64,000 nt of DNA from NCBI GenBank assembly GCA_016780775.1, contig JADHLI010000004.1, positions 62,001 to 126,000 on the forward strand, read 5' to 3'. Under the pieces are notes generated by a model. It worked only from the letters and a program-made list of their open reading frames with translations, did not search any database and was not told the origin of the DNA. Made by a program: the position numbers and the translations under genes. Positions 40,567 to 64,000 of the stretch are shown here, one piece after another. The DNA comes from Alphaproteobacteria bacterium (lineage in GTDB: Bacteria; Pseudomonadota; Alphaproteobacteria; Puniceispirillales; Puniceispirillaceae). Positions within the stretch are counted from its first letter, which is position 1; each line of letters opens with the position of its first letter.

Positions 40567-41880
40567 CTAGACATGCGCATCAAGCGTTTTGCGGAATTTA
40601 TCCACAATTTCGTCGATATGTGAGCGTTCTGCAACAAAGGCAGGCGCTAGAATACCATTATCGCCTGTGAACTTCACATGCAGGCCGTTCCAGAACATAT
40701 CCTTTTGCATCTGCGTGCCACGTCTGCCACCTACACCATCATGGTGCAATTCAACACCAGCCATCATACCATAGCCGCGTAAATCCTTCACCAGCTCATG
40801 GTCTTTCAATGACCAGACTGCATCCAGAAAATATTGCGACATATCTGCTGCGCGGTCAAACAAGCCTTCATCCTCATAGATTTTCTGTGTTGCAATACCA
40901 GCAGCACAGGCGGCAGGATGGGCAGAATAGGTGTATCCATGGAAAAACTCGATAGCATTTTCAGGAGAAGCGTTAGTTATCGTGTTGTAAATCTCATCCT
41001 TCACCGCAACCGCACCCATCGGAATAGCACCATTAGTAAGCGCCTTAGCCATCGTGATAATATCTGGCGTCACACCATAGGTTTCAGAAGCGAAGGCTTT
41101 GCCGGTGCGCCCAAAGCCTGTGATAACCTCATCAAACACCAGCAAGATGCCATGTTCGTCACAAATTTCACGAAGCCGCTTAAGATAGCCAATAGGCGGT
41201 ACAAGTGTACCGGTTGAGCCAGCAATAGGTTCAACAAATACAGCTGCGATAGTGCTACCGCCATAAGTCTCACAGATGCGCACCAAATCTTCTGCTAATT
41301 CTGCACCTGTGTCTGGCTGACCTTTGGTAAAGGCCTGCTCTGGTGTGTGTGTATGGCGCATGGTAACGACATTTGGCAGGGTTACCGGGAATGTCTCTCT
41401 GTTTTTGACCATACCAGCTAGCGATACACCGCCCATATTCACGCCGTGATAAGCGCGCTCACGGCTAACAAAACGTAGCCGCTGAGATTGACCGTTTGCA
41501 CGGTTATAGGCCATCACAATTTTCATTGCTGTTTCAACAGATTCTGAACCCGAATTTGTAAAAAACACATGGTTTATGGGGTCAGGCAAAAGACGTGACA
41601 CCCGCTCGGCTAATTCAAATGAGCCCGGATGGCCAAGCTGGAAATGCGGAATATAGTCATTTTCCAACATCTGTTTATAAACCGCCTCAGCGATTTCAGT
41701 TCGGCCATGACCAGCGGGGGTGCAAAACAGACCTGAAGATCCGTCAATAACTTTGCCACCCTTATAATCCCAGCAATACATACCTTCCGATTTAACGACA
41801 AGGCGCGGGTTAGCTTTGAAATCCCGATTTGCGGAAAAGGGCATCCAATGATTTTCCAAAGAATTTACATCAAAAGGCAT
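40567..41880 (-). CDS. tpa: Class III PLP aminotransferase, probable taurine:pyruvate aminotransferase
   Basis: Transfers the amino group of an omega-amino acid to pyruvate. The 437-residue protein begins FDVNSLENHWMPFSANRDFK, as in beta-alanine:pyruvate aminotransferases. It has the PLP features FTNSGSESVETAMK, FDEVITGFGRTGK and the Schiff-base lysine in MAKALTNGAIPMG. The adjacent divergent xsc gene, 428 bases away, points to taurine as substrate and sulfoacetaldehyde as product. By sequence alone it is closer to the beta-alanine or omega-amino acid type than to classic Tpa, so substrate is uncertain; taurine, hypotaurine and beta-alanine may all be used. Confidence 0.78.
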   Translation of the reverse strand: MPFDVNSLENHWMPFSANRDFKANPRLVVKSEGMYCWDYKGGKVIDGSSGLFCTPAGHGRTEIAEAVYKQMLENDYIPHFQLGHPGSFELAERVSRLLPDPINHVFFTNSGSESVETAMKIVMAYNRANGQSQRLRFVSRERAYHGVNMGGVSLAGMVKNRETFPVTLPNVVTMRHTHTPEQAFTKGQPDTGAELAEDLVRICETYGGSTIAAVFVEPIAGSTGTLVPPIGYLKRLREICDEHGILLVFDEVITGFGRTGKAFASETYGVTPDIITMAKALTNGAIPMGAVAVKDEIYNTITNASPENAIEFFHGYTYSAHPAACAAGIATQKIYEDEGLFDRAADMSQYFLDAVWSLKDHELVKDLRGYGMMAGVELHHDGVGGRRGTQMQKDMFWNGLHVKFTGDNGILAPAFVAERSHIDEIVDKFRKTLDAHV

Positions 41881-42308: not shown

Positions 42309-44087
42309 ATGAAGATGACAACCGAAGAAGCATTTGTGAAAGTGCTGCAAAGACACGGAATTGAACATGCCTTTGGTATTATTGGCTCGGCAATGATGCC
42401 GATATCTGATTTGTTTCCAAAAGCAGGAATTACGTTTTGGGACGCTGCGCATGAATGTAATGCAGGTATGATGGCTGATGGCTATACCAGAGCTTCTGGT
42501 AAGGTCTGTATGATGGTTGCGCAAAATGGACCAGGCATTACTAACTTTGTAACGCCGGTTAAAACAGCTTACTGGAACCATACGCCTCTGCTGCTGGTTA
42601 CCCCGCAAGCGGCAAACAAGACTATCGGACAAGGCGGCTTTCAGGAAGTTGAGCAAATGGCGTTGTTCAAGGATATGGTCGCCTATCAAGAAGAGGTGCG
42701 GGACCCCTCTCGTATCGCTGAAGTTCTGAACCGTGTTATCTCGCAAGCTATCCGATTGAGCGCACCTGCGCAAATCAACGTGCCCCGCGATTTCTGGACA
42801 CAAGTCATCGATATTGAAATTCCTGAAGCTGTGCGCTTTGAGCGCCCCTCTGGCGGCGAGGAAGCTATTGCAGAGGCCGCAAAGTTGCTATCTGAAGCGG
42901 AATTCCCAGTATTGCTGAACGGTGCAGGTGTTGTTATCGGCGGCGGAATTGAAGCATCGATGGCACTCGCAGAACGCCTTGATGCGCCGGTTTGTTGTGG
43001 TTATCAACATAATGATGCGTTTCCTGGCTCGCATCCGCTTTTTGCTGGCCCGCTTGGGTATAATGGCTCAAAAGCAGGTATGGAGCTGATAGCTAAAGCA
43101 GATGTGGTGCTTGCCCTTGGCACGCGTTTAAATCCATTCTCTACCCTTCCGGGTTATGGCATTGATTACTGGCCAAAAGATGCAAAGATTATTCAGGTAG
43201 ATATTAATCCTGACCGAATTGGCCTGACCAAGCCAGTGTCAGTTGGTATTGTCGGCGATGCTAAGAAGGTTGCAACATCAATTCTGGAGCGTCTAGGCAG
43301 CAATGCTGGCGAGAAGGGGCGTTCTACGCGTAAATCGGTTGTCGCCCAGACGAAATCAGCATGGGCGCAGGAGCTAACCTCGCTTACCCATGAAGATGAT
43401 GATCCCGGTACAACTTGGAATGAGCGTGCACGTACACGTGAGCCTAAAAAGATGAGCCCACGCATGGCATGGCGGGCGATTACCTCTGTGTTGCCAAAAG
43501 AAGCCATTATCAGCTCTGATATCGGCAATAACTGCGCCATTGGTAATGCTTATCCAACTTTTGATGAAGGGCGTAAATATCTGGCCCCCGGCCTGTTTGG
43601 CCCTTGTGGTTATGGCTTTCCAGCCATAGCTGGTGCAAAGATTGCCCAGCCAGATGTGCCAGTTGTCGGTTTTGCAGGGGACGGTGCATTTGGCATTTCG
43701 ATGAACGAAATGGTGTCAGTTGGTCGCAGTGAATGGCCAGCTATTACCATGGTTATCTTCCGCAATTATCAGTGGGGTGCTGAAAAGCGCAATACGACAC
43801 TGTGGTTTGATGATAATTTCGTAGGCACAGAGTTGGATACGGATGTTACCTATGCAGGTATCGCCAAACAGTGCGGGCTTGAAGGGGTACAGGTAGACAG
43901 CATGGACGCCTTAAGTGAGGCTCTTGATAGGGCTATCAACGCGCAGATGAAGGATAACAAAACAACCTTTATTGAGGTGGTGCTAAACCAAGAGCTGGGT
44001 GAGCCTTTCCGCCGCGATGCAATGAAACAGCCTGTTCAGGTTGCGGGTATCGACCCTTCTGACTTCCGCCCACAGCAATCTGCCTAA
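42309..44087 (+). CDS. xsc: Sulfoacetaldehyde acetyltransferase
   Basis: Thiamine-diphosphate enzyme that cleaves sulfoacetaldehyde with phosphate into acetyl phosphate and sulfite, the desulfonation step shared by taurine, isethionate and related sulfonates. The 592-residue protein has the cofactor-activating Glu49 in AAHECNAGMMADGYTR, the ThDP motif GDGAFG at residues 457-462 ending at an asparagine about 28 residues on (RNYQWG), and the Xsc-specific WNHTPLLLVTPQAANKT and KRNTTLWFDDN stretches. A good ribosome site (AAGGGAG) precedes the ATG. pta follows after 19 bases. Confidence 0.96.
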   Translation: MKMTTEEAFVKVLQRHGIEHAFGIIGSAMMPISDLFPKAGITFWDAAHECNAGMMADGYTRASGKVCMMVAQNGPGITNFVTPVKTAYWNHTPLLLVTPQAANKTIGQGGFQEVEQMALFKDMVAYQEEVRDPSRIAEVLNRVISQAIRLSAPAQINVPRDFWTQVIDIEIPEAVRFERPSGGEEAIAEAAKLLSEAEFPVLLNGAGVVIGGGIEASMALAERLDAPVCCGYQHNDAFPGSHPLFAGPLGYNGSKAGMELIAKADVVLALGTRLNPFSTLPGYGIDYWPKDAKIIQVDINPDRIGLTKPVSVGIVGDAKKVATSILERLGSNAGEKGRSTRKSVVAQTKSAWAQELTSLTHEDDDPGTTWNERARTREPKKMSPRMAWRAITSVLPKEAIISSDIGNNCAIGNAYPTFDEGRKYLAPGLFGPCGYGFPAIAGAKIAQPDVPVVGFAGDGAFGISMNEMVSVGRSEWPAITMVIFRNYQWGAEKRNTTLWFDDNFVGTELDTDVTYAGIAKQCGLEGVQVDSMDALSEALDRAINAQMKDNKTTFIEVVLNQELGEPFRRDAMKQPVQVAGIDPSDFRPQQSA

Positions 44088-44106
44088 ATAGGGGCTAGTG
44101 CCTAAT

Positions 44107-45087
44107 ATGCCACAGCCGCCAAAAAGCTCTGCAACTGCCGCACAGAATTTTATCAGCTCTGTTGCGGCAGATTGCCCAGAGGGGCTTTTGGCAGCCGCGC
44201 GCGGCAAGGGCAGAATAAACTTACTTGTAGTCAGGGCATCTGCTGCCCTGCCTATGGAAGCGGCCTTCAATGCTTATCAAGCTGGTATCGCTAACCCTAT
44301 CTTAGTCGGTGAGGGGGCCGCTATTCGCGTTGAGGCAGAAAAGCTTGGCTGGGACCTCTCCGGCATCACCATAATCGAGGCTACTGGTGAGAAAGAAGCG
44401 GCTTTGATAAGTGCTGGTCTGCTGCGAGATAGCCTCAAAGATGGTGCTGTCCAGGCTATTGGCGCGGTAATGAAAGGCCAACTCCACACAGATGTATTTA
44501 TGGCGGCGTTACTGAACCGGGAGATAGGTCTTCGTATCGGCAATCGGCTTGTTCATGTCTTTGCTATATACCCGCCGGATAGCTCAGCTGGACCTATTTT
44601 GGTTTCTGATGCAGCAGTTAATGTACAGCCAGATGAAAAAACGCAAAATCAGTCCATGATTGAAATGTGCGCTCTGGCAAAAAAGCTAGGGCAAGCACGT
44701 CCGAAATTAGCGATATTATCAGCAACTGAAACCCCAATAGAGTCCATGCCGGCTTCTATTACAGCGCACGAGCGTGCTAAGTGGGCAGCAGAAAATATCT
44801 CAGAAATTGAAGTATCTGGACCTCTTTCCTTCGACCTTGCTTTATCAGATAAAGCTGTTCAAACCAAAGGGGTGGAAGGGGATATGGTCGCTGGGCAAGC
44901 AAATTGTTTGCTCGTGCCGGATATCGTTAGTGGTAATATCCTTTATAAAGCGCTGGTCTATCTTGGCGGCGGTTGTGCAGCCGGTATTGTGCTAGGAGGC
45001 GCTGTGCCTGTATTATTGACTAGCCGTGCAGACCCACCGCAAGCCCGCCTTGCTTCTATTGCTTTAGCTGCGGTTGCTCAAGATTAG
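44107..45087 (+). CDS. pta: Phosphate acetyltransferase
   Basis: Converts the acetyl phosphate formed by Xsc to acetyl-CoA. The short form of about 326 residues contains only the PTA_PTB catalytic domain: GRINLLVVRASAA, KGQLHTDVFM, IYPPDSSAGPILVSDAAVN, and the C-terminal GGCAAGIVLGGAVPVLLTSRAD. The ATG at 44107 is favoured because GGGG lies 12 bases ahead; a GTG at 44098 would place it only 3 bases away. The xsc-pta pair is the standard arrangement for sulfonate dissimilation. It converges on the next gene with a 15-base gap. Confidence 0.94.
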   Translation: MPQPPKSSATAAQNFISSVAADCPEGLLAAARGKGRINLLVVRASAALPMEAAFNAYQAGIANPILVGEGAAIRVEAEKLGWDLSGITIIEATGEKEAALISAGLLRDSLKDGAVQAIGAVMKGQLHTDVFMAALLNREIGLRIGNRLVHVFAIYPPDSSAGPILVSDAAVNVQPDEKTQNQSMIEMCALAKKLGQARPKLAILSATETPIESMPASITAHERAKWAAENISEIEVSGPLSFDLALSDKAVQTKGVEGDMVAGQANCLLVPDIVSGNILYKALVYLGGGCAAGIVLGGAVPVLLTSRADPPQARLASIALAAVAQD

Positions 45088-56663: not shown

Positions 56664-57292
56664 TTAAAAACAGGTCATAATCTCGGATAGTGGTTTTTTA
56701 CTCATCGATGCTTGTGGGATCACCGCATCCGAAGATGGATAGCCTATGGGCAAGATCATTACTGGTTTTTCATGGGCAGGGCGTTCACACAACTTGTTCA
56801 AAAACCGCATCGGTAGGGGTATGCACTAGACAAGATAGGCCTGCTTGATGCAGGGCAGTTATCAGCATCCCGGCCGGGATACCAACATTTTTTTGGAACA
56901 TAATAATGCTTATAGCGGCTGTTATCTGCGCGCAGGCCATAACGTTGGGCAAACACGATGGTCAACCAAGGGGCATCGGTCAAATGCGGTTTATGCGCGG
57001 TCGTGCCCAGCGGTTCTAGTGCAGCTATCCATTCATCACCGCCGCCGCCTGCATAAAATGCTTCTTCCTCTGCCTCTGCAGCCTTTCTTATATGTGCTTT
57101 CATTTCTGCATCCTTTATGGCCACAAAATGCCAAGGCTGCTGATTGGCTCCAGATGGCGCACGCCCTGCGGTCGCTATCGCATTTTCAATAATTGTTTGG
57201 GATACCGGCCGATTGTCATAATGCCGCACAGAATGACGCGTTTTTATAAACTCAAGAAACGCTGCACTTGCCGCTTTTTGAGGCTTTATCAC
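56664..57292 (-). pseudogene. Nitroreductase-family gene with two frameshifts
   Basis: From the ATG at 57292 the frame encodes a normal nitroreductase start (KTRHSVRHYDNRPVSQ, GRAPSGANQQPWHFV) up to YYVPKK, then turns into nonsense and stops at 56798. Removing one base from a run of seven T (plus strand 56888-56894) restores NVGIPAGMLITALHQAGLSC. A second shift near 56811-56815 restores PMRFLNKLCERPAHEKPVMI to a TAA at 56664. The joined protein would be about 209 residues, normal for FMN nitroreductases of the short type. Either a decayed gene or two sequencing errors. Confidence 0.8.
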
Positions 57293-57493: not shown

Positions 57494-58228
57494 ATGAACG
57501 TCTTTGCATCAGATGCCGTCAAAGCAGCGCTTGCCCCGCATGGAACTCTTCGTGCGGCGATAAATATGAGTAATTTTCTGCTCGTTTCTGGTCAGGATAG
57601 CGATGGGGCAGCAGATGGGGTGTCGCCTGACCTAGCCAAAGCAATTGCCAAACGATTGGATGTGCCATGTCAACTTATTCCCTATGAAGGTCCGGGGCAG
57701 CTTGGTGATGATGTTGGCAAGGATATCTGGGATATTGGTAATATCGCAATTGAACCAGAACGCGCACAAACGATAGATTTTAGTCAAAGCTATGTGAATA
57801 TTGATGCTAATTTTTTGGTCCGTAAAAATTCTGATTTTCACAGTAATGCAGATATTAATAAGCAAGGGGTGGAGATAATTTTATATAACCGCAGTGCTTA
57901 TGATTTATGGCTTACGGATAATTTTACATCGCCAACTTATCGCAGGGTAGCTTCTATTAAAGACTCGCATGCAGATTTTCATAATGGGGAGGCGGATGTG
58001 CTAGCTAGCCTAAAGCCCAAATTGGTTGAGGAATTAGAGGCCTCAGATCAGTACCGCGTGATTGACCCCCCTTTTACCGCTATCCGTCAGGCTGTTGGGA
58101 TTGCAAAAGGGCATCCAGCGGCGCTGAGCTTCATAAATGAGGTGATAGGAGAGCTATTAGGAACAGGGGCTATCGCAAGCTCGTTAAAAGCGCATGATGT
58201 AGACAGGAAACTGAGTCTTCCCAGCTAG
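57494..58228 (+). CDS. Substrate-binding protein domain (SBP_bac_3 type) without signal peptide
   Basis: The 244-residue protein has the fold markers of extracellular solute-binding proteins of family 3 (LRAAINMSNFLL, SPDLAKAIAKRL, DIGNIAIEPERAQTIDFSQSY, HNGEADVLASLKPKL), which bind amino acids or related ligands. It lacks a hydrophobic leader: the sequence starts MNVFASDAVKAALAPHGT and enters the domain at once. It is therefore cytoplasmic or a sensor-like stray, unless a start lies further upstream (none seen). No permease gene adjoins it on the same side; the taurine ABC genes begin 271 bases downstream. Confidence 0.75.
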   Translation: MNVFASDAVKAALAPHGTLRAAINMSNFLLVSGQDSDGAADGVSPDLAKAIAKRLDVPCQLIPYEGPGQLGDDVGKDIWDIGNIAIEPERAQTIDFSQSYVNIDANFLVRKNSDFHSNADINKQGVEIILYNRSAYDLWLTDNFTSPTYRRVASIKDSHADFHNGEADVLASLKPKLVEELEASDQYRVIDPPFTAIRQAVGIAKGHPAALSFINEVIGELLGTGAIASSLKAHDVDRKLSLPS

Positions 58229-58499: not shown

Positions 58500-59480
58500 A
58501 TGAAAAAGTTTTTGAAGCACGCATATGCTGGGCTGGCAAGCGCCGCTTTGCTAGCGTCCGCGACGGCTGCACAAGCAGCTGATAGCGTAAATGTGGCTTT
58601 CTTTTTGGAGTGGGCTACCCCTAACCAGATTGCAAAGGTAGATAAAGCCTATGATGCCGCAATGGGCGTCGATGTAAATTGGACAGACTTTTCAACAGGT
58701 GTCGGGATGACCGAAGCCATGTTGGCTGGTGATATCGATATTGCCTATTCACAAGGTCTGGCACCGTTCGTAACAGCTATCCAGCAGGGTGCTCCTTTGA
58801 AAATGGTGGCAATCGCTGTGGTTTACGAAGCTAATGACTGTTTCGTGCGTGGCGATTTAGGTATTACTTCAGCTAACGCAACCGAGCTAGAGGGCAAAAC
58901 AGTTGCTGTGCCTCTAAATACAATGGCTGACTTCTCTTTCAGAAAGCAGATGGCTGCGCTGAACGTAGATACCTCAACCATGACAATTGTTGATCAGGCG
59001 CCGCCTGATGGTGCTGCGTCACTAACAGATGGTTCTGTTGATATGGCTTGTATTTTCGGTGGTGCTTCTGCGAAAATCGCTGGTGAAGCTGGTGCGCCTA
59101 TCATGTCATCACAGGAAAAGAAGGATGCTGGTATCGGTTCTTTTGATGTGATTTCGGTTACTGAAAAATTTGCTTCAGAAAACCCTGGTCTGCTGAAAAC
59201 CTTCCTTGAGGTAACAGATGAAGCTAATGCTGCATGGACAGGTTCTGATGAGCAAATTTCAAAAGTTGCTGCTGACGCAGGGATGGATTTTGCTACAACC
59301 AAGAACCAAATGTCTGGCTTTATCTTCCCATCAGTTGAAGAACAGCAGGCTAATTATTTCGGTAACTCTGGTGTCGCCGCTTCTGCAGCTGAATCACTTG
59401 GTGCGGTTTTCGTGAAAACCAACATTTCTAACTACAAGGGTGCTGTTGCTGCAACAATTGACGGCTCTTTCCTAGAGTAG
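58500..59480 (+). CDS. tauA: Taurine ABC transporter substrate-binding protein
   Basis: Periplasmic binding protein of 326 residues with a signal peptide (LLASATAAQAAD). The mature part shows the TauA/SsuA family features FFLEWATPNQIAK, GDIDIAYSQGLAPFVTAIQQG, KTVAVPLNTMADFSFRK and DMACIFGGASAKI. Taurine is the likely ligand given Xsc in the same region. The gene is separated from tauB by 109 bases holding two hairpins, so it probably makes more protein than the permease genes. The ribosome site GGGAGA lies upstream of the ATG. Confidence 0.92.
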   Translation: MKKFLKHAYAGLASAALLASATAAQAADSVNVAFFLEWATPNQIAKVDKAYDAAMGVDVNWTDFSTGVGMTEAMLAGDIDIAYSQGLAPFVTAIQQGAPLKMVAIAVVYEANDCFVRGDLGITSANATELEGKTVAVPLNTMADFSFRKQMAALNVDTSTMTIVDQAPPDGAASLTDGSVDMACIFGGASAKIAGEAGAPIMSSQEKKDAGIGSFDVISVTEKFASENPGLLKTFLEVTDEANAAWTGSDEQISKVAADAGMDFATTKNQMSGFIFPSVEEQQANYFGNSGVAASAAESLGAVFVKTNISNYKGAVAATIDGSFLE

Positions 59481-59589: not shown

Positions 59590-60387
59590 ATGACTGATCT
59601 ATTGTGTAAAAACCTGTCTATGACTTTTACCAATCCAGCAAATGGAGCGATGGTAGAGGCCTTAAAAGATATCAATTTTACGTTAAAAAAAGGTGAGCTT
59701 TTATCCGTTCTTGGACCTTCTGGTTGTGGAAAAACTACCTTGCTTAATATGATTGCAGGGTTTCTGAATCCTACTTCTGGCCAGCTTTCCCTTGGCGATA
59801 AGCAGATAGAGGGGCCAGGGGTTGAGCGCGGCATGGTGTTTCAGCAAGGCGCATTATTTGAATGGTTGCCGGTATCGAAAAACGTAGATTTTGGCTTGCG
59901 GATGAAAAATTTAACCCCCGCTGACAGTGAAAAACTTGTCGAAAAATGGCTGGATATTGTTGGTTTAACAGGGTTTGGGGATACACCTACCTATCAGCTA
60001 TCAGGCGGGATGCAGCAACGGGTTGCCTTAGCGCGTTGCCTTGTAAATGATCCAGAACTTATTTTGATGGATGAGCCTTTGGGCGCGCTTGATGCGCTGA
60101 CTAGAGAAAAAATGCAGTCGCTAATATTAGAGCTGTGGAAAGAAACTGGAAAAACTATCATCATTATCACCCATTCTGTCGAAGAAGCCCTGTTACTGGG
60201 GGAGCGGTTATTTGTGATGGCACCGCGTCCGGGACGGATTCACAAAGAATATAATCTGCCCTTTGCAGAGCGCGGCTTAAAGGAAAGTTTGCGGGATATC
60301 AAACAACAATCTGATTTCGGAAGCGTTAGAGAAGAAATTCTAACAATGATTTGGGATATGGAAGAGGAGATCATGGGCAATGTCTGA
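59590..60387 (+). CDS. tauB: Taurine ABC transporter ATP-binding protein
   Basis: A 265-residue ATPase of the nitrate/sulfonate/taurine importer class. Walker A GPSGCGKTT is at residues 42-50, the Q loop FQQ at 84-86, the signature LSGGMQQR at 137-144, and Walker B LILMDEPLGALD around 157-168. The switch histidine follows in IIITHSVEEAL. It overlaps tauC by 8 bases. The closest partners are TauA and TauC encoded here. Confidence 0.94.
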   Translation: MTDLLCKNLSMTFTNPANGAMVEALKDINFTLKKGELLSVLGPSGCGKTTLLNMIAGFLNPTSGQLSLGDKQIEGPGVERGMVFQQGALFEWLPVSKNVDFGLRMKNLTPADSEKLVEKWLDIVGLTGFGDTPTYQLSGGMQQRVALARCLVNDPELILMDEPLGALDALTREKMQSLILELWKETGKTIIIITHSVEEALLLGERLFVMAPRPGRIHKEYNLPFAERGLKESLRDIKQQSDFGSVREEILTMIWDMEEEIMGNV

Positions 60388-62308
60388 GTTCTTATCTACC
60401 CACCGCGCTGATGTAGCGGCACTCCTTATTATCATTCTGACGGGGCTGTTTGTCTGGTCAATTTATTATGGGTTACGGCGTACGCGTAAACTCGATAGTG
60501 AACAGGTATTTGGCGATCCAGAACGCACGCTAGGTGGCTGGTTCTGGGCGGTTTGCGGTGTATCTAGCCTGCTTCTGGTATGGTTTTACTTCTCTTGGGG
60601 AACGGCGCGCGCTTTCTTTCCAAGTGCTGCGAACGAAATGTGTCAGGTAGCTAAGATCGATGAAGCTCTATCGCCGATAACAGCTAAATTGCCTTATGGT
60701 GATCGCTATTATAAATCGACCGAATTGTTGGTGCGTAATGGCCAACAATTGGCTGCGTTGGAAGCGCAGATGCCAGCAGGTGTCTATTCAAGTGCAGAAC
60801 AGAAAAAGCTGTTTTCTATTCTTGATCGCAACCAACAACTCCTAACTATTTATTCTGACAGCGCCCAGCAAAGCCCATCTACAGGCGCTGATCTGGACGC
60901 AATTCATCTTCGCCTTCAGGGGCTAAGCGAGGCTATTGACGCAGGTTATGCCGGGTTGATGCCAACTGCTGAAGCACTGGCACAGCCGCGTTGGGGGGTT
61001 ACTGATAGCGAAATCCCTATGCTGCCTTTAACGCCAAGAGGGGTTTTATTTGATAATGTGGCTGAGCAATCTAAAGAAATTGCCAAAGATTTCGTTAAGG
61101 TGCGCAATCTGCCAGAAGCTGCAAAAATAATTATTTCAGGTGTAAAGAGCGATATTACTAGCCTGAAAGAAGCGGATAAAAATTACAGCGGTAGTGAGGC
61201 AGATTTAGCCAGCCGGAAGGCTTATCTTAAAGCTGTGGAGCGTATTTTTAAACGTTTAGATGATGGCGCTATTTTCCCTGCCGCTGCAATGATGCAAATC
61301 AATCTAGATATCCTCCAGATTCAAGATAGTGTAAAAAGCCAAACAAAGGGTCTACGCCTTGTGGATGCGCTGTTTTTGCCTGGTGAGGGGGTTGTAAAAT
61401 CGCGGACGCTTTGTGTGGAGCAGGGGTCTAGTCGTTGGCTTCCTAAACCTACAGATGTAGTTGCAAAATTTGCCCGCCTCGCCAATCCAAATCTTGAAGA
61501 TGGTGGCGGGTATAAAGGCACAGTTCTATTCTGGTGGAAATGGCTGGAAATTGCAGATGTTATTGCCTTTTTAATTCCCGATGGGGTAGTGGATATGCTG
61601 CCCGGTGATTATGGCATTCATAATGATAATGGAGAATTTGTTAAAACCTATAAAGATCACTTACTCGCTGTTGCGCAGGGCGATGTGTATTTAGGCGTGG
61701 TACCCATGCTGGATGGGCATATTTGGGATTCGGTGTTCCGGGTTATTGTCGCTATGGGATTTGGTATTGCCTTAGGTGTGCCACTTGGCATCTATATGGG
61801 CGTATCGCGCTTTTTCAAGTCCTTTTTTGACCCTCTTATTGAATTGTACCGCCCGGTACCACCATTAGCATGGGCGCCGTTGATTCTGACCATTTTTGGG
61901 ATTCAGGATGACGGTAAAATCTTTCTGTTATTTATGGTAGCCTTTGCCATTATGGTGATATCAGCACGCACAGGCGCCTCTGGGACACAGCTCTCAAAGA
62001 TACGTGCCTCACACTCGCTAGGCGCAACTAATAAGCAGATCATCCGCTATGTTATTTTACCAAACGCCTTGCCGGAAATCCTAACCGGCATCCGGATTTC
62101 TATCGGTGTGTGCTGGGGAACTTTGGTCGCCGCAGAAATGTTAGCAGGGACGACTGGTATCGGCTTTATTGAAAATGTAGCACGTACAGTCTCAGACTAT
62201 GAGCTAATCTGGGTAACAATCTTGATTATGGGCTTACTAGGCTTGTTATTTGATATAGCAATGCGGTTTACGATTTCGGTGCTGATACCATGGCGCGGTA
62301 AGGGCTAG
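60380..62308 (+). CDS. tauC: Taurine ABC transporter permease with large periplasmic-type insertion
   Basis: A 642-residue permease, more than twice the usual ~280 residues. Two membrane helices (about 13-32 and 53-72) are followed by about 370 mostly soluble residues (helical, K/E/D/A-rich, with a hydrophobic patch near 381-400). A typical BPD_transp_1 domain of about five or six helices follows from about 446. The EAA loop that contacts TauB lies at 542-572 (ASHSLGATNKQIIRYVILP). Topology places the insertion on the periplasmic side (inference). No family assignment for the insertion was recognised; it may help receive the ligand from TauA. The frame is continuous, with no sign of an artificial fusion. 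Confidence 0.88.
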   Translation: MSEFLSTHRADVAALLIIILTGLFVWSIYYGLRRTRKLDSEQVFGDPERTLGGWFWAVCGVSSLLLVWFYFSWGTARAFFPSAANEMCQVAKIDEALSPITAKLPYGDRYYKSTELLVRNGQQLAALEAQMPAGVYSSAEQKKLFSILDRNQQLLTIYSDSAQQSPSTGADLDAIHLRLQGLSEAIDAGYAGLMPTAEALAQPRWGVTDSEIPMLPLTPRGVLFDNVAEQSKEIAKDFVKVRNLPEAAKIIISGVKSDITSLKEADKNYSGSEADLASRKAYLKAVERIFKRLDDGAIFPAAAMMQINLDILQIQDSVKSQTKGLRLVDALFLPGEGVVKSRTLCVEQGSSRWLPKPTDVVAKFARLANPNLEDGGGYKGTVLFWWKWLEIADVIAFLIPDGVVDMLPGDYGIHNDNGEFVKTYKDHLLAVAQGDVYLGVVPMLDGHIWDSVFRVIVAMGFGIALGVPLGIYMGVSRFFKSFFDPLIELYRPVPPLAWAPLILTIFGIQDDGKIFLLFMVAFAIMVISARTGASGTQLSKIRASHSLGATNKQIIRYVILPNALPEILTGIRISIGVCWGTLVAAEMLAGTTGIGFIENVARTVSDYELIWVTILIMGLLGLLFDIAMRFTISVLIPWRGKG

Positions 62309-62470: not shown

Positions 62471-64000
62471 ATGGATGATCACTCACCTGACGCGGTTGGA
62501 GGTCAGCAATCCGGGTCTAGAAGAAGCGGCGGACGCAGTGCAAGACATAGGGTTCGTAATGCGCCGTTAGCAAAAGAAATTCAACCTGTTCACCCTGGTC
62601 TTATTGGGGGGCAATATCGGCCTTTAACGCCATCTGATGTTTCCCGAATTGAGCAAACAATCTATCAGCTCCTGAGCGAGATAGGCCTATCACAAGCACC
62701 AGAAAGCGGTATTGAATATATGACACGGGCTGGCGCTACTCTAGGCGATGATGGCCGTGTACGCTTCTCTCAATCACTTGTTGAAGATACGCTAGCGGGA
62801 GCGGCGCGCAGTTTGACCTTGCATGCTAGAGACCCGCAATATGATTTGCATTTATCTGGTTCGCGCGTGCATTACGGCACAGCAGGGGCGGCAGTACATA
62901 TTGTGGATGTAGAAGGGCATTGCTACCGCGAATCCCATTTGCGTGATATTTATGATGCGGCGCGGATTGTTCAACAAATGGATAATATTCACTTCTTTCA
63001 GCGTCCTATGGTCGCTCGTGATATCGATAATCCCTGTGATTTGGACGTAAACACGCTCTATGCATGTCTGAAAGGGACGAGCAAGCATGTAGGGACTAGC
63101 TTTACAGAAGCTGATTTTCTTACCCCCTCTATGGCGCTTTTGCATGATATAGCTGGCGGCGAGGCAGCGTGGCGCGCCAGGCCCTTTGTTTCTAATTCAA
63201 ACTGTTTTGTTGTACCGCCTTTGCGGTTTGCCACTGAATCTTGTCTTGTGATGGAAGCAGCTGTCCGTGCAGGCATGCCGGTATTGTTGCTATCTGCTGG
63301 GCAAGCTGGGGCTACGGCACCGGCTTCTATTGCAGGGGCAATTGCCCAAGCATTAGCCGAAGTGCTGGCGGGGCTAATTTATGTAAATGCCATGTCGCCG
63401 GGGCATCCGACGATTGCTGGAACTTGGCCGTTCGTATCTGATTTACGCACAGGGGCAATGTCTGGTGGTTCTGGAGAGCAGGGGCTGCTAACCGCAGCTT
63501 GTGCGCAGATGCTTCAGCATTTTGGCCTGCCTGGTGGTGCTGCCTCTGGTATGGCAGATGCAAAAATGCCAGATGCGCAATCTGGTTATGAGAAAGGGTC
63601 AACAGCGGTTATGGCAGGGCTTGCTGGCCTGAATATGGTTTATGAGGCGGCTGGCATGCATGCCTCTTTGCTGGGCTTCTGCCTTGAATCTCTGGTGATA
63701 GATAATGATATGCTGGGCCAGTGCTTGCGATGTGTTCGCGGAATAGAGGTTACAGACGAAATGCTGGATATATCTGTGTTCAGGGATGTTTGTCTTGATG
63801 GGCCTGGGCATTATCTAGGTCATAGTCAGACACTATCTTTGATGCAGTCTGAATATATCTATCCTGCTGTTTCCGACCGTTCTAGCCCAAAAGAATGGGA
63901 AGAGCTTGGCAAGCCAATATTAGTTAAACAAGCGTCTGAAAAGGTGCAGGCGATCTTGCAGAATGACACAAAAGGCCGCTTTGATGAAGACCTTGATGCT
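62471..64000 (+). CDS. MttB-family (trimethylamine methyltransferase superfamily) protein, 3' end outside window
   Basis: 510 codons are open to the window edge without any in-frame stop, including no TAG that could encode pyrrolysine. The protein starts with a short basic head (GRRSGGRSARHR-like region, residues 17-30), then the MttB-like TIM-barrel: HVGTSFTEADFLTPS, FVSNSNCFVVPPLRF, GQAGATAPASIAGAIAQALAEV, GGSGEQGLLTAAC and GGAASGMADAKMPDAQSGYEKG. Pyl-free members of this superfamily demethylate glycine betaine and other quaternary amines onto corrinoid proteins. No corrinoid protein or reductive activator is seen in the window. The start ATG at 62471 is the first in the frame; the upstream gap is 162 bases. 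Confidence 0.85.
   Translation, partial: MDDHSPDAVGGQQSGSRRSGGRSARHRVRNAPLAKEIQPVHPGLIGGQYRPLTPSDVSRIEQTIYQLLSEIGLSQAPESGIEYMTRAGATLGDDGRVRFSQSLVEDTLAGAARSLTLHARDPQYDLHLSGSRVHYGTAGAAVHIVDVEGHCYRESHLRDIYDAARIVQQMDNIHFFQRPMVARDIDNPCDLDVNTLYACLKGTSKHVGTSFTEADFLTPSMALLHDIAGGEAAWRARPFVSNSNCFVVPPLRFATESCLVMEAAVRAGMPVLLLSAGQAGATAPASIAGAIAQALAEVLAGLIYVNAMSPGHPTIAGTWPFVSDLRTGAMSGGSGEQGLLTAACAQMLQHFGLPGGAASGMADAKMPDAQSGYEKGSTAVMAGLAGLNMVYEAAGMHASLLGFCLESLVIDNDMLGQCLRCVRGIEVTDEMLDISVFRDVCLDGPGHYLGHSQTLSLMQSEYIYPAVSDRSSPKEWEELGKPILVKQASEKVQAILQNDTKGRFDEDLDA

Follow-up and report, generated by a model that had tools for sequence, protein, structure and literature searches.

Long-form TauC of marine proteobacteria with a predicted helical domain in its first loop: a candidate accessory platform for TauA

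In E. coli, the TauC permease of the TauABC importer is a chain of 275 residues with a permease core, an EAA-type loop and an LPxP motif after the first transmembrane helix (TM1), and its genes lie in the order tauA-tauB-tauC. The 64,000-nucleotide stretch analysed here (the window) encodes a TauC-like protein of 642 residues that shares the core, the loop, the motif and the gene order and differs in having an extra N-terminal helix and a large domain in the loop after TM1. The solved structures closest to its permease part are those of NrtB and CmpB, permeases of nitrate and bicarbonate ATP-binding cassette (ABC) importers; these handle other substrates and are chains of about 250–280 residues, hence without a comparable insert. 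Also comparable is a medium TauC of Rhodobacteraceae, with plasmid-borne examples in Ruegeria conchae and Paracoccus aminovorans, which has a hydrophobic N-terminal stretch, an insert in the same loop and a tauABC context, but is 420–460 residues long, carries an Ig-like insert and forms a separate clade.

A large periplasmic loop domain in a type I permease has a precedent, the P2 domain of MalF in the maltose importer. Its description places P2 at MalF residues 91–271, with beta-sheets, a short helix and residues that contact the binding protein MalE (PMC3150292). Long TauC is comparable by role and position only: its added domain is all-helical and follows TM1 of a presumed homodimer, and no homology with MalF-P2 is claimed. 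As described below, this domain is constant in length and widespread in marine lineages, and we tentatively read it as a platform for the binding protein TauA.

Architecture of the long TauC

The gene and its parts are as follows.
60380..62308, + strand: long-form TauC permease, 642 residues, a single open reading frame with an ATG start
60404..60502, + strand: extra N-terminal membrane helix, residues 9–41, absent from E. coli TauC (AlphaFold2 helix; outside the best CmpB alignment)
60503..60535, + strand: loop 42–52 with the VFGDPER motif, putatively cytoplasmic (alignment)
60536..60616, + strand: normal TM1 of the permease fold, residues 53–79 (VIA-align to CmpB 9ua0_A)
60623..61384, + strand: inserted all-helical domain, residues 82–335, putatively periplasmic (AlphaFold2)
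60641..60643, + strand: codon of invariant Cys88 (68 of 68 sequences)
61412..61414, + strand: codon of invariant Cys345 (68 of 68 sequences)
61439..61450, + strand: LPKP motif, residues 354–357 (alignments, matched by eye)
61448..61708, + strand: second extension of the same loop, residues 357–443, between the LPxP motif and the GHIWDS segment
61709..62305, + strand: permease core with EAA-type loop, residues 444–642 (Pfam, NCBIfam, structure, alignment)

The assignment to the TauC-type family of type I ABC permeases is firm. Pfam BPD_transp_1 matches residues 466–629 (E 4e-23; 82.4 bits against a gathering cut-off of 26.4), and the NCBIfam TauC model (PRK10160) aligns residues 443–641 with its positions 75–273 of 275, in agreement with the C-terminal permease domain that an earlier note on this DNA had described. 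The NCBIfam score of 173.9 bits comes from a partial-length alignment and falls below the equivalog cut-off of 342; judged by its sequence, the protein has a TauC-like core and is not an E. coli-type TauC. In a profile alignment to short TauC proteins headed by that of E. coli, identity is 42% over residues 444–642.

A structural model was made with AlphaFold2 from 68 sequences (mean predicted local distance difference test score, pLDDT, 77.9, compared with 61.5 for an earlier 17-sequence model). CmpB and NrtB are the best structural matches of its permease part (Z 15.7–17.9), although segments of the core near residues 490–510 and 590–605 fall under pLDDT 50. In the VIA-align superposition on CmpB 9ua0_A (Z 17.9, root-mean-square deviation [rmsd] 3.8, 227 residues aligned), model residues 51..639 are paired with chain residues 24..278. 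Because this alignment begins at model residue 51, helix 53–79 is the ordinary TM1 and only helix 9–41 is extra, which rules out the two additional N-terminal helices first proposed for the protein.

In short TauC proteins, TM1 leads into the LPxP motif and, after a short stretch, into an HxxxS segment. In long TauC, TM1 is followed by the helical domain (82–335), LPKP (354–357), the extension to residue 443 and GHIWDS, which aligns with WQHLAAS of E. coli TauC; LPKP is likely the counterpart of the LPxP motif. The added part (about residues 80–443) would accordingly lie in the first periplasmic loop. An orientation with residues 42–52 cytoplasmic and 80–443 periplasmic is suggested by the family fold, the positive charges past the first helix and the cysteine pair. 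The soluble region that the earlier note had placed at residues 73–445 is thus retained, with these narrower bounds and as two parts, the helical domain and the second extension. At the position of VFGDPER, a TVxFGD motif occurs in three short TauC proteins (L127, L129 and L130) and in all 16 medium TauC proteins inspected. The loop that houses the long-form insert is also modestly expanded in two other short TauC proteins (L131 and L134, family f52), by about 20 residues placed after the LPxP motif.

Residues 82–335 are predicted with confidence (pLDDT block means 78–94, mostly 85–94 and about 90), with seven main helices between residues 112 and 322; block means for residues 357–443 are 58–79. 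Cys88 and Cys345 are the only cysteines within residues 82–443 in 67 of 68 sequences. A lone invariant pair is as expected of an oxidising compartment, and the insert is probably clasped by a C88–C345 disulfide.

Fold searches gave bundle-level matches at best. For the insert, Foldseek returned no significant match; the 15 and 9 matches with E below 0.001 were all ABC permeases (the 17-sequence model, its low-confidence permease part partly trimmed, was kept for the second fold search). The best VIA match of the insert is the sensor domain of the histidine kinase TorS (3i9y; Z 11.4, rmsd 8.3, 162 aligned), with a further TorS comparison at Z 10.7 and TorS bound to its binding-protein partner TorT (3o1i) at Z 9.2, rmsd 10.1. 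Other sensor bundles follow: PilJ (7zjr; Z 9.0, rmsd 3.1, 109 aligned), McpZ (8f7n; Z 8.8, rmsd 3.0, 103 aligned) and McpS (2yfa; Z 8.6, rmsd 8.3). The tool asks for a Z of about 13 from helical bundles, which reach about that value by chance, so the TorS resemblance is a hint below the level of trust. It is of interest because E. coli TorS acts together with the periplasmic binding protein TorT (PMC6814406).

Profile searches gave a similar picture. No Pfam family matched the window's own insert at E up to 1. Over the 68 inserts, Pfam matches were scattered (for example, DUF4404 in 11, best E 0.0024; Tup_N in 2, best E 6e-5) and coiled-coil-type in look among the 25 families listed of 137. 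A PDB profile search with the insert gave 41 matches (best E 8e-4), to helical proteins of designed or generic type, and TorS was not among them. A weak or missing match does not demonstrate a new fold.

The sensor bundles raise the alternative that the insert is a periplasmic sensor module like those of TorS, McpS or PilJ, which would bind a ligand or partner and gate the transporter or report its flux. Several bacterial sensor domains recur among the structural matches, and invariant or near-invariant residues gather in a few loops (W205, G206 and E211; R292, D294 and D295). Yet all Z values lie within the chance range of helical bundles, no sensor family stands among the 25 Pfam families listed, and the chemoreceptor chains of the PDB profile search (2ch7, 3ja6) appear only at E of at least 0.24. 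Genes that look by eye like response regulators or kinases (clusters 13 and 19) are found close to some of the gammaproteobacterial loci and not to the rest. We regard a sensor as unlikely.

Distribution and evolution of the long form

The long form is the usual TauC of one marine importer clade and not a one-off layout. Full open reading frames of 624–657 residues were found in 84 of 89 loci (L024–L112, counting the gene of the window itself and one repeat), and the other five run off contig ends. The N-terminal region was matched in 36 of 61 relatives, or 35 without genome G010, whose match, at 24% identity with one stop and an E of 8e-4, probably arose by chance. A scan of genome contigs gave at least 499 confirmed matches; the titles among the best 80 loci, which were retained, include SAR116, Rhodobacterales assemblies, Geminicoccus, Thioalkalivibrio, Cocleimonas, Leucothrix, Granulosicoccaceae and Pseudomonadales. 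With the best four candidates scored per genome, the long form was present in 9 of 385 genomes sampled across the class and in 1 of 397 sampled across the phylum, that one being the window's own. A plasmid search with the insert gave no match.

The densest occurrence is in the order of a 1.3-Mb genome (G355), where 40 of 97 genomes have the long form, including 36 of 37 in genus g194. Open frames of 610–667 residues were found in 38 of these 40; a TAA reported inside some matches is taken to lie before the start, leaving the frame intact. Genomes of 1.0–1.5 Mb, alphaproteobacterial kinship and a GC content of 31–33% in the fetched regions make this order look like Pelagibacter (SAR11). In all six loci fetched from it, tauA-tauB-long tauC occurs with an aminotransferase gene on the opposite strand, and four of the six have a phosphate acetyltransferase (Pta)-type gene; Xsc was found in none of the six within the 9–13 kb read. 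The long insert is thus real, constant in length and widespread in SAR116, a SAR11-like genus and marine gammaproteobacteria.

Conservation was scored on 68 of 85 sequences kept after an 88% identity filter, and alignment A1 holds 17 of 20 homologues (L008, L010 and L018 omitted; the window sequence stands for its own copy, L004). In the permease core, 103 of 199 positions are invariant across the 68 sequences. The best conserved stretches of the insert have mean commonest-residue shares of 0.82 (295–300), 0.70 (323–356) and 0.69 (80–111), whereas its helices have shares of 0.37–0.56. Against the nearest relative, L024, which is 89% identical over the N-terminal 442 residues, the ratio of nonsynonymous to synonymous substitution rates (dN/dS) is 0.063 for residues 82–345 and 0.015 for the core, at a dS of about 1, near saturation. 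Together with the uninterrupted frames of the same size in 84 of 89 loci, these ratios rule out an artefact or a fusion of frames. An unstructured, assembly-derived addition absent from orthologues, the outcome that would have undone the earlier note, is likewise excluded by the orthologues, the confident predicted fold and the purifying dN/dS.

Two readings draw on the variability of the insert. It could be a tolerated passenger in a loop that accepts insertions, doing little by itself; the rapid evolution of its helices and the different insert of a related clade would fit. The constant length (624–657 residues in 84 of 84 full frames), the invariant cysteines and the dN/dS of 0.06 speak otherwise, as does its occurrence in 36 of 37 SAR11-like assemblies, whose small genomes are unlikely to keep coding DNA of no use, and we judge a passenger decidedly improbable. 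Long helices, a fast-changing sequence and coiled-coil-like profile matches would also suit an envelope anchor or oligomerisation domain that joins transporters, peptidoglycan or another membrane protein and has no direct role in substrate transfer. No peptidoglycan-binding family stands among the 25 Pfam families listed, though, and linkage to a TauA clade (below) would be unexpected were TauA irrelevant; we hold an anchor to be quite unlikely.

The related clade with a different insert emerged from two further searches. A class-wide search with the core only (best 13 candidates scored per genome) listed 30 matches: 6 at 69–100% identity, all in frames of 641–652 residues, and 24 at 48% or less. 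In a Rhodobacteraceae-like family (best 10 candidates per genome), 156 of 295 genomes had a match, and among the matches listed 6 were of the long form, at 84–90%. All 16 weaker matches inspected (14, plus 2 from the core-only search that belong to the same family by their coordinates; loci L126, L128 and L159–L172) were of the medium form: 420–460 residues, with a hydrophobic N-terminal stretch, a TVTFGD motif and, in the loop that is enlarged in the long form, an insert of another kind. This insert looks beta/Ig-like rather than helical: Pfam Big_9 (bacterial Ig) was matched weakly in nine of nine scanned (E 4e-6 to 0.02), four of the nine above the cut-off. The plasmid-borne examples from Ruegeria conchae and Paracoccus aminovorans are annotated, if at all, as ABC transporter permease. 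PMC10130141 lists two tauABC genes of Ruegeria pomeroyi, SPO0674 and SPO0676, as verified for taurine through the growth of mutants; a second test in the same table, available apart from its column heads, gives SPO0674 as not significant and SPO0676 as p 0.011. SPO0676 appears to be of the medium form.

In the TauC tree, the 15 long rows form one clade (support 100/100). The medium clade has support of 99/98 in the first permease tree and 98/98 in the second, from which eight distant short rows were dropped, and the short forms L127, L129 and L130 stand beside it. In the TauA tree, the partners of the long form (14 rows) and of the medium form each form a clade with support of 100/100. The long TauC clade and its TauA clade both span alpha- and gammaproteobacteria. 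Rows were picked by hand (15 long and 8 medium for TauC; 14 long and 8 medium for TauA), and the L128 row was cut longer than the others in both permease trees (309 residues). Long TauC is thus co-inherited with a distinct TauA clade. A single clade of long and medium TauC is not rejected (p-AU 0.37); because the inserts are unlike, their history must include either two gains or at least one replacement. A different domain filling the same loop in a related clade hints that an extra periplasmic part is of advantage at this site.

TauA, gene neighbourhood and likely substrate

The other genes of the window that bear on function are listed here.
58500..59480, + strand: TauA-type substrate-binding protein with a signal-peptide-like N-terminus, judged by eye (Pfam NMT1; TIGR01729, E 9e-28)
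59590..60387, + strand: TauB-type ATPase, overlapping tauC by 8 bases (NF008421, 273 bits, below the cut-off of 357)
40567..41880, - strand: omega-aminotransferase, probably a taurine aminotransferase (NF052567, 606 bits, above the cut-off of 500)
42309..44087, + strand: Xsc, sulfoacetaldehyde acetyltransferase (TIGR03457, 931 bits, above the cut-off of 676)
44098..45087, + strand: phosphate acetyltransferase-type protein, probably Pta (NF006045, 242 bits, below the cut-off of 282)

The transporter genes lie in the order tauA-tauB-tauC, with tauC last. TauA scores 97.5 bits with TIGR01729 against a cut-off of 304, and all three Tau proteins fall under the cut-offs of the E. coli-type NCBIfam equivalogs. 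The Xsc, aminotransferase and Pta-type genes are some 13–18 kb from the transporter genes.

The importer retains a separate TauA besides its extra extracytoplasmic domain, as the earlier note had observed for this locus. TauA is encoded upstream of long tauC in 57 of 75 full-length loci; five others have too little upstream sequence, and 13 have none upstream, two of which carry TauA nearby on the other strand. The remaining 11, gammaproteobacterial loci with tauB-tauC(long) and no tauA found in the locus, could be taken to mean that the insert is a built-in receptor that binds taurine first and makes TauA dispensable, all the more since TauA was not found in 2 of the 11 genomes checked (G1192 and G1198). 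In the other nine, however, TauA is encoded elsewhere at 51–59% identity, and the two misses may reflect incomplete assemblies; moreover, a helical bundle is predicted and not a binding-protein fold. The insert probably does not replace TauA, which disfavours the receptor-like role once suggested for it, and we consider a built-in receptor highly improbable. In the Granulosicoccaceae-type loci L079, L082, L091, L092, L095 and L096, tauB-long tauC is split from tauA, and the neighbours, named from sequence starts, include a protein of about 600 residues, a ferredoxin-like protein and two-component-like genes.

The pocket of E. coli TauA includes Gln30, Gly61, Gly79, Glu106, Thr132 and Asp205 (PMC6906117). 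In long-form TauA (the window's and 58 homologues), G61, G79 and D205 are conserved in 59 of 59, whereas Q30 is replaced by F in 59 of 59, T132 by M in 58 and E106 by D in 53; the comparison is made at about 22% identity to E. coli TauA, and sites near 106 and 132 may be misaligned. With D205, G61 and G79 kept and the other sites changed, affinity and range may differ from those of E. coli TauA. The substrate is likely taurine or a close relative.

Neighbours were counted in the best 80 loci over up to 6 kb on each side, often less. An aminotransferase of the window's type (superfamily) is present in 19 loci, reaching at least 500 bits to the window's in 10; Xsc is present in 7, a Pta-type gene in 10 and a MocR-type regulator in 12. 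Most of the 80 show no aminotransferase, Xsc, Pta-type or MocR gene within reach.

Three further genes flank the transporter in the window. A gene resembling that of trimethylamine methyltransferase (MttB) follows tauC at 62471–64000 and runs off the end of the window (TIGR02369, 323 bits against a cut-off of 525). Such a gene is present in only 3 of the 80 long-tauC loci, so a substrate shared with tauC is doubtful. At 57494–58228, 5' of tauA, lies a lone reading frame for a family-3 amino-acid-type binding protein (SBP_bac_3) with no visible signal peptide. A 164-residue reading frame on the - strand at 56798–57292 has a nitroreductase-like start and an unrelated-looking end, judged by eye, and is possibly a frameshifted or broken gene.

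A possible platform for TauA

The reading that we favour, tentatively and as somewhat less than an even chance, is that the insert is an accessory docking or retention platform for TauA, working in the manner of MalF-P2 but unrelated to it and different in fold and position. On this view the protein is the permease subunit of a type I ABC importer of the TauABC type, which carries taurine or a close relative, with its first periplasmic loop expanded by a stable, probably disulfide-clasped helical domain and a shorter extension. If long TauC forms a homodimer, as the comparison with short TauC suggests, the periplasmic face would carry the domain twice, around the docking site of TauA. There they could hold or guide TauA over the translocation pore, as the MalF-P2 loop contacts MalE, and the outcome would be a higher capture of taurine at the very low concentrations of sea water. 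The periplasmic side, disulfide, homodimer, TauA contact and effect on uptake are steps that we infer, while the data themselves show the reading frame, the site of the insertion, the predicted helical fold, the conserved cysteine pair, the joint inheritance with a separate TauA clade and the taurine-breakdown genes of the window. The evidence counted for docking includes the loop position after TM1 of an NrtB/CmpB-type fold with its confident helical prediction, the invariance of C88 and C345, the dN/dS of 0.063, the paired long TauC and TauA clades, and TauA in 9 of the 11 genomes lacking it at the locus. It further includes TorS as best structural match, the other domain in the loop of a related clade, and the taurine-breakdown genes in the window and beside part of the homologues.

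Several observations weigh against such a platform. E. coli TauABC works with a short TauC that has no such domain. The insert changes at some six times the rate of the core (mean distance 1.29 versus 0.21), more than would be expected of a tight conserved interface. The best fold match, TorS, lies below Z of about 13 and is level with the unrelated TTYH2 (Z 10.7), and no significant Foldseek match was found for the domain. The TauA and TauC trees conflict on the short-form genome G094, whose TauC (L129) stands beside the medium clade and whose TauA (L182) stands beside the long clade; the TauA tree also sets short forms between long and medium, in another order than the TauC tree.

Rate correlations add to these points. 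They were computed on 58 loci with adjacent full TauA, TauB and long TauC, 54 without near-duplicates, drawn from 90 loci with full-length long TauC (84 and 6). No specific tie between TauA and the insert was seen in the 54 loci: the partial correlation of TauA with the insert, given TauB and core, is 0.28, lower than the values for the cytoplasmic TauB and the insert (0.52, given TauA and core) and for TauA and the core (0.72, given TauB and insert). The remaining values are 0.28 for insert and core (given TauA and TauB), -0.07 for TauA and TauB (given insert and core) and 0.05 for TauB and core (given TauA and insert). A docking domain, as proposed in the earlier note, is thus still the best guess from position, the TorS-like hint and the MalF-P2 precedent, though the rate correlation did not single out TauA.

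On a broader and more speculative reading, which we think rather unlikely, the first periplasmic loop of TauC would act as a docking bay that marine lineages have fitted with unrelated domains: helical ones in SAR116, the SAR11-like genus and marine gammaproteobacteria, Ig-like ones in Ruegeria and Paracoccus. Each domain would be matched to its own TauA clade and would tether TauA to the homodimeric importer at nanomolar substrate.

The permease is of a known kind; for the inserted domain, no family or annotation was found in the Pfam, NCBIfam and PDB profile searches. A literature search over titles and the starts of abstracts, with subscription journals mostly outside its scope, found no mention of a long TauC or of a domain in it among the papers listed. 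Taurine is among the major sources of carbon and energy for marine prokaryotes, and SAR11 takes up much of it (PMC6647121). If the docking reading is true, a marine permease would bear a part of about 28 kDa that lies outside Pfam and NCBIfam and is hidden by plain permease annotation. Long TauC would then offer a testable handle on how an importer works at nanomolar substrate, and the two unlike domains that occupy the same TauC loop may serve as a natural experiment.

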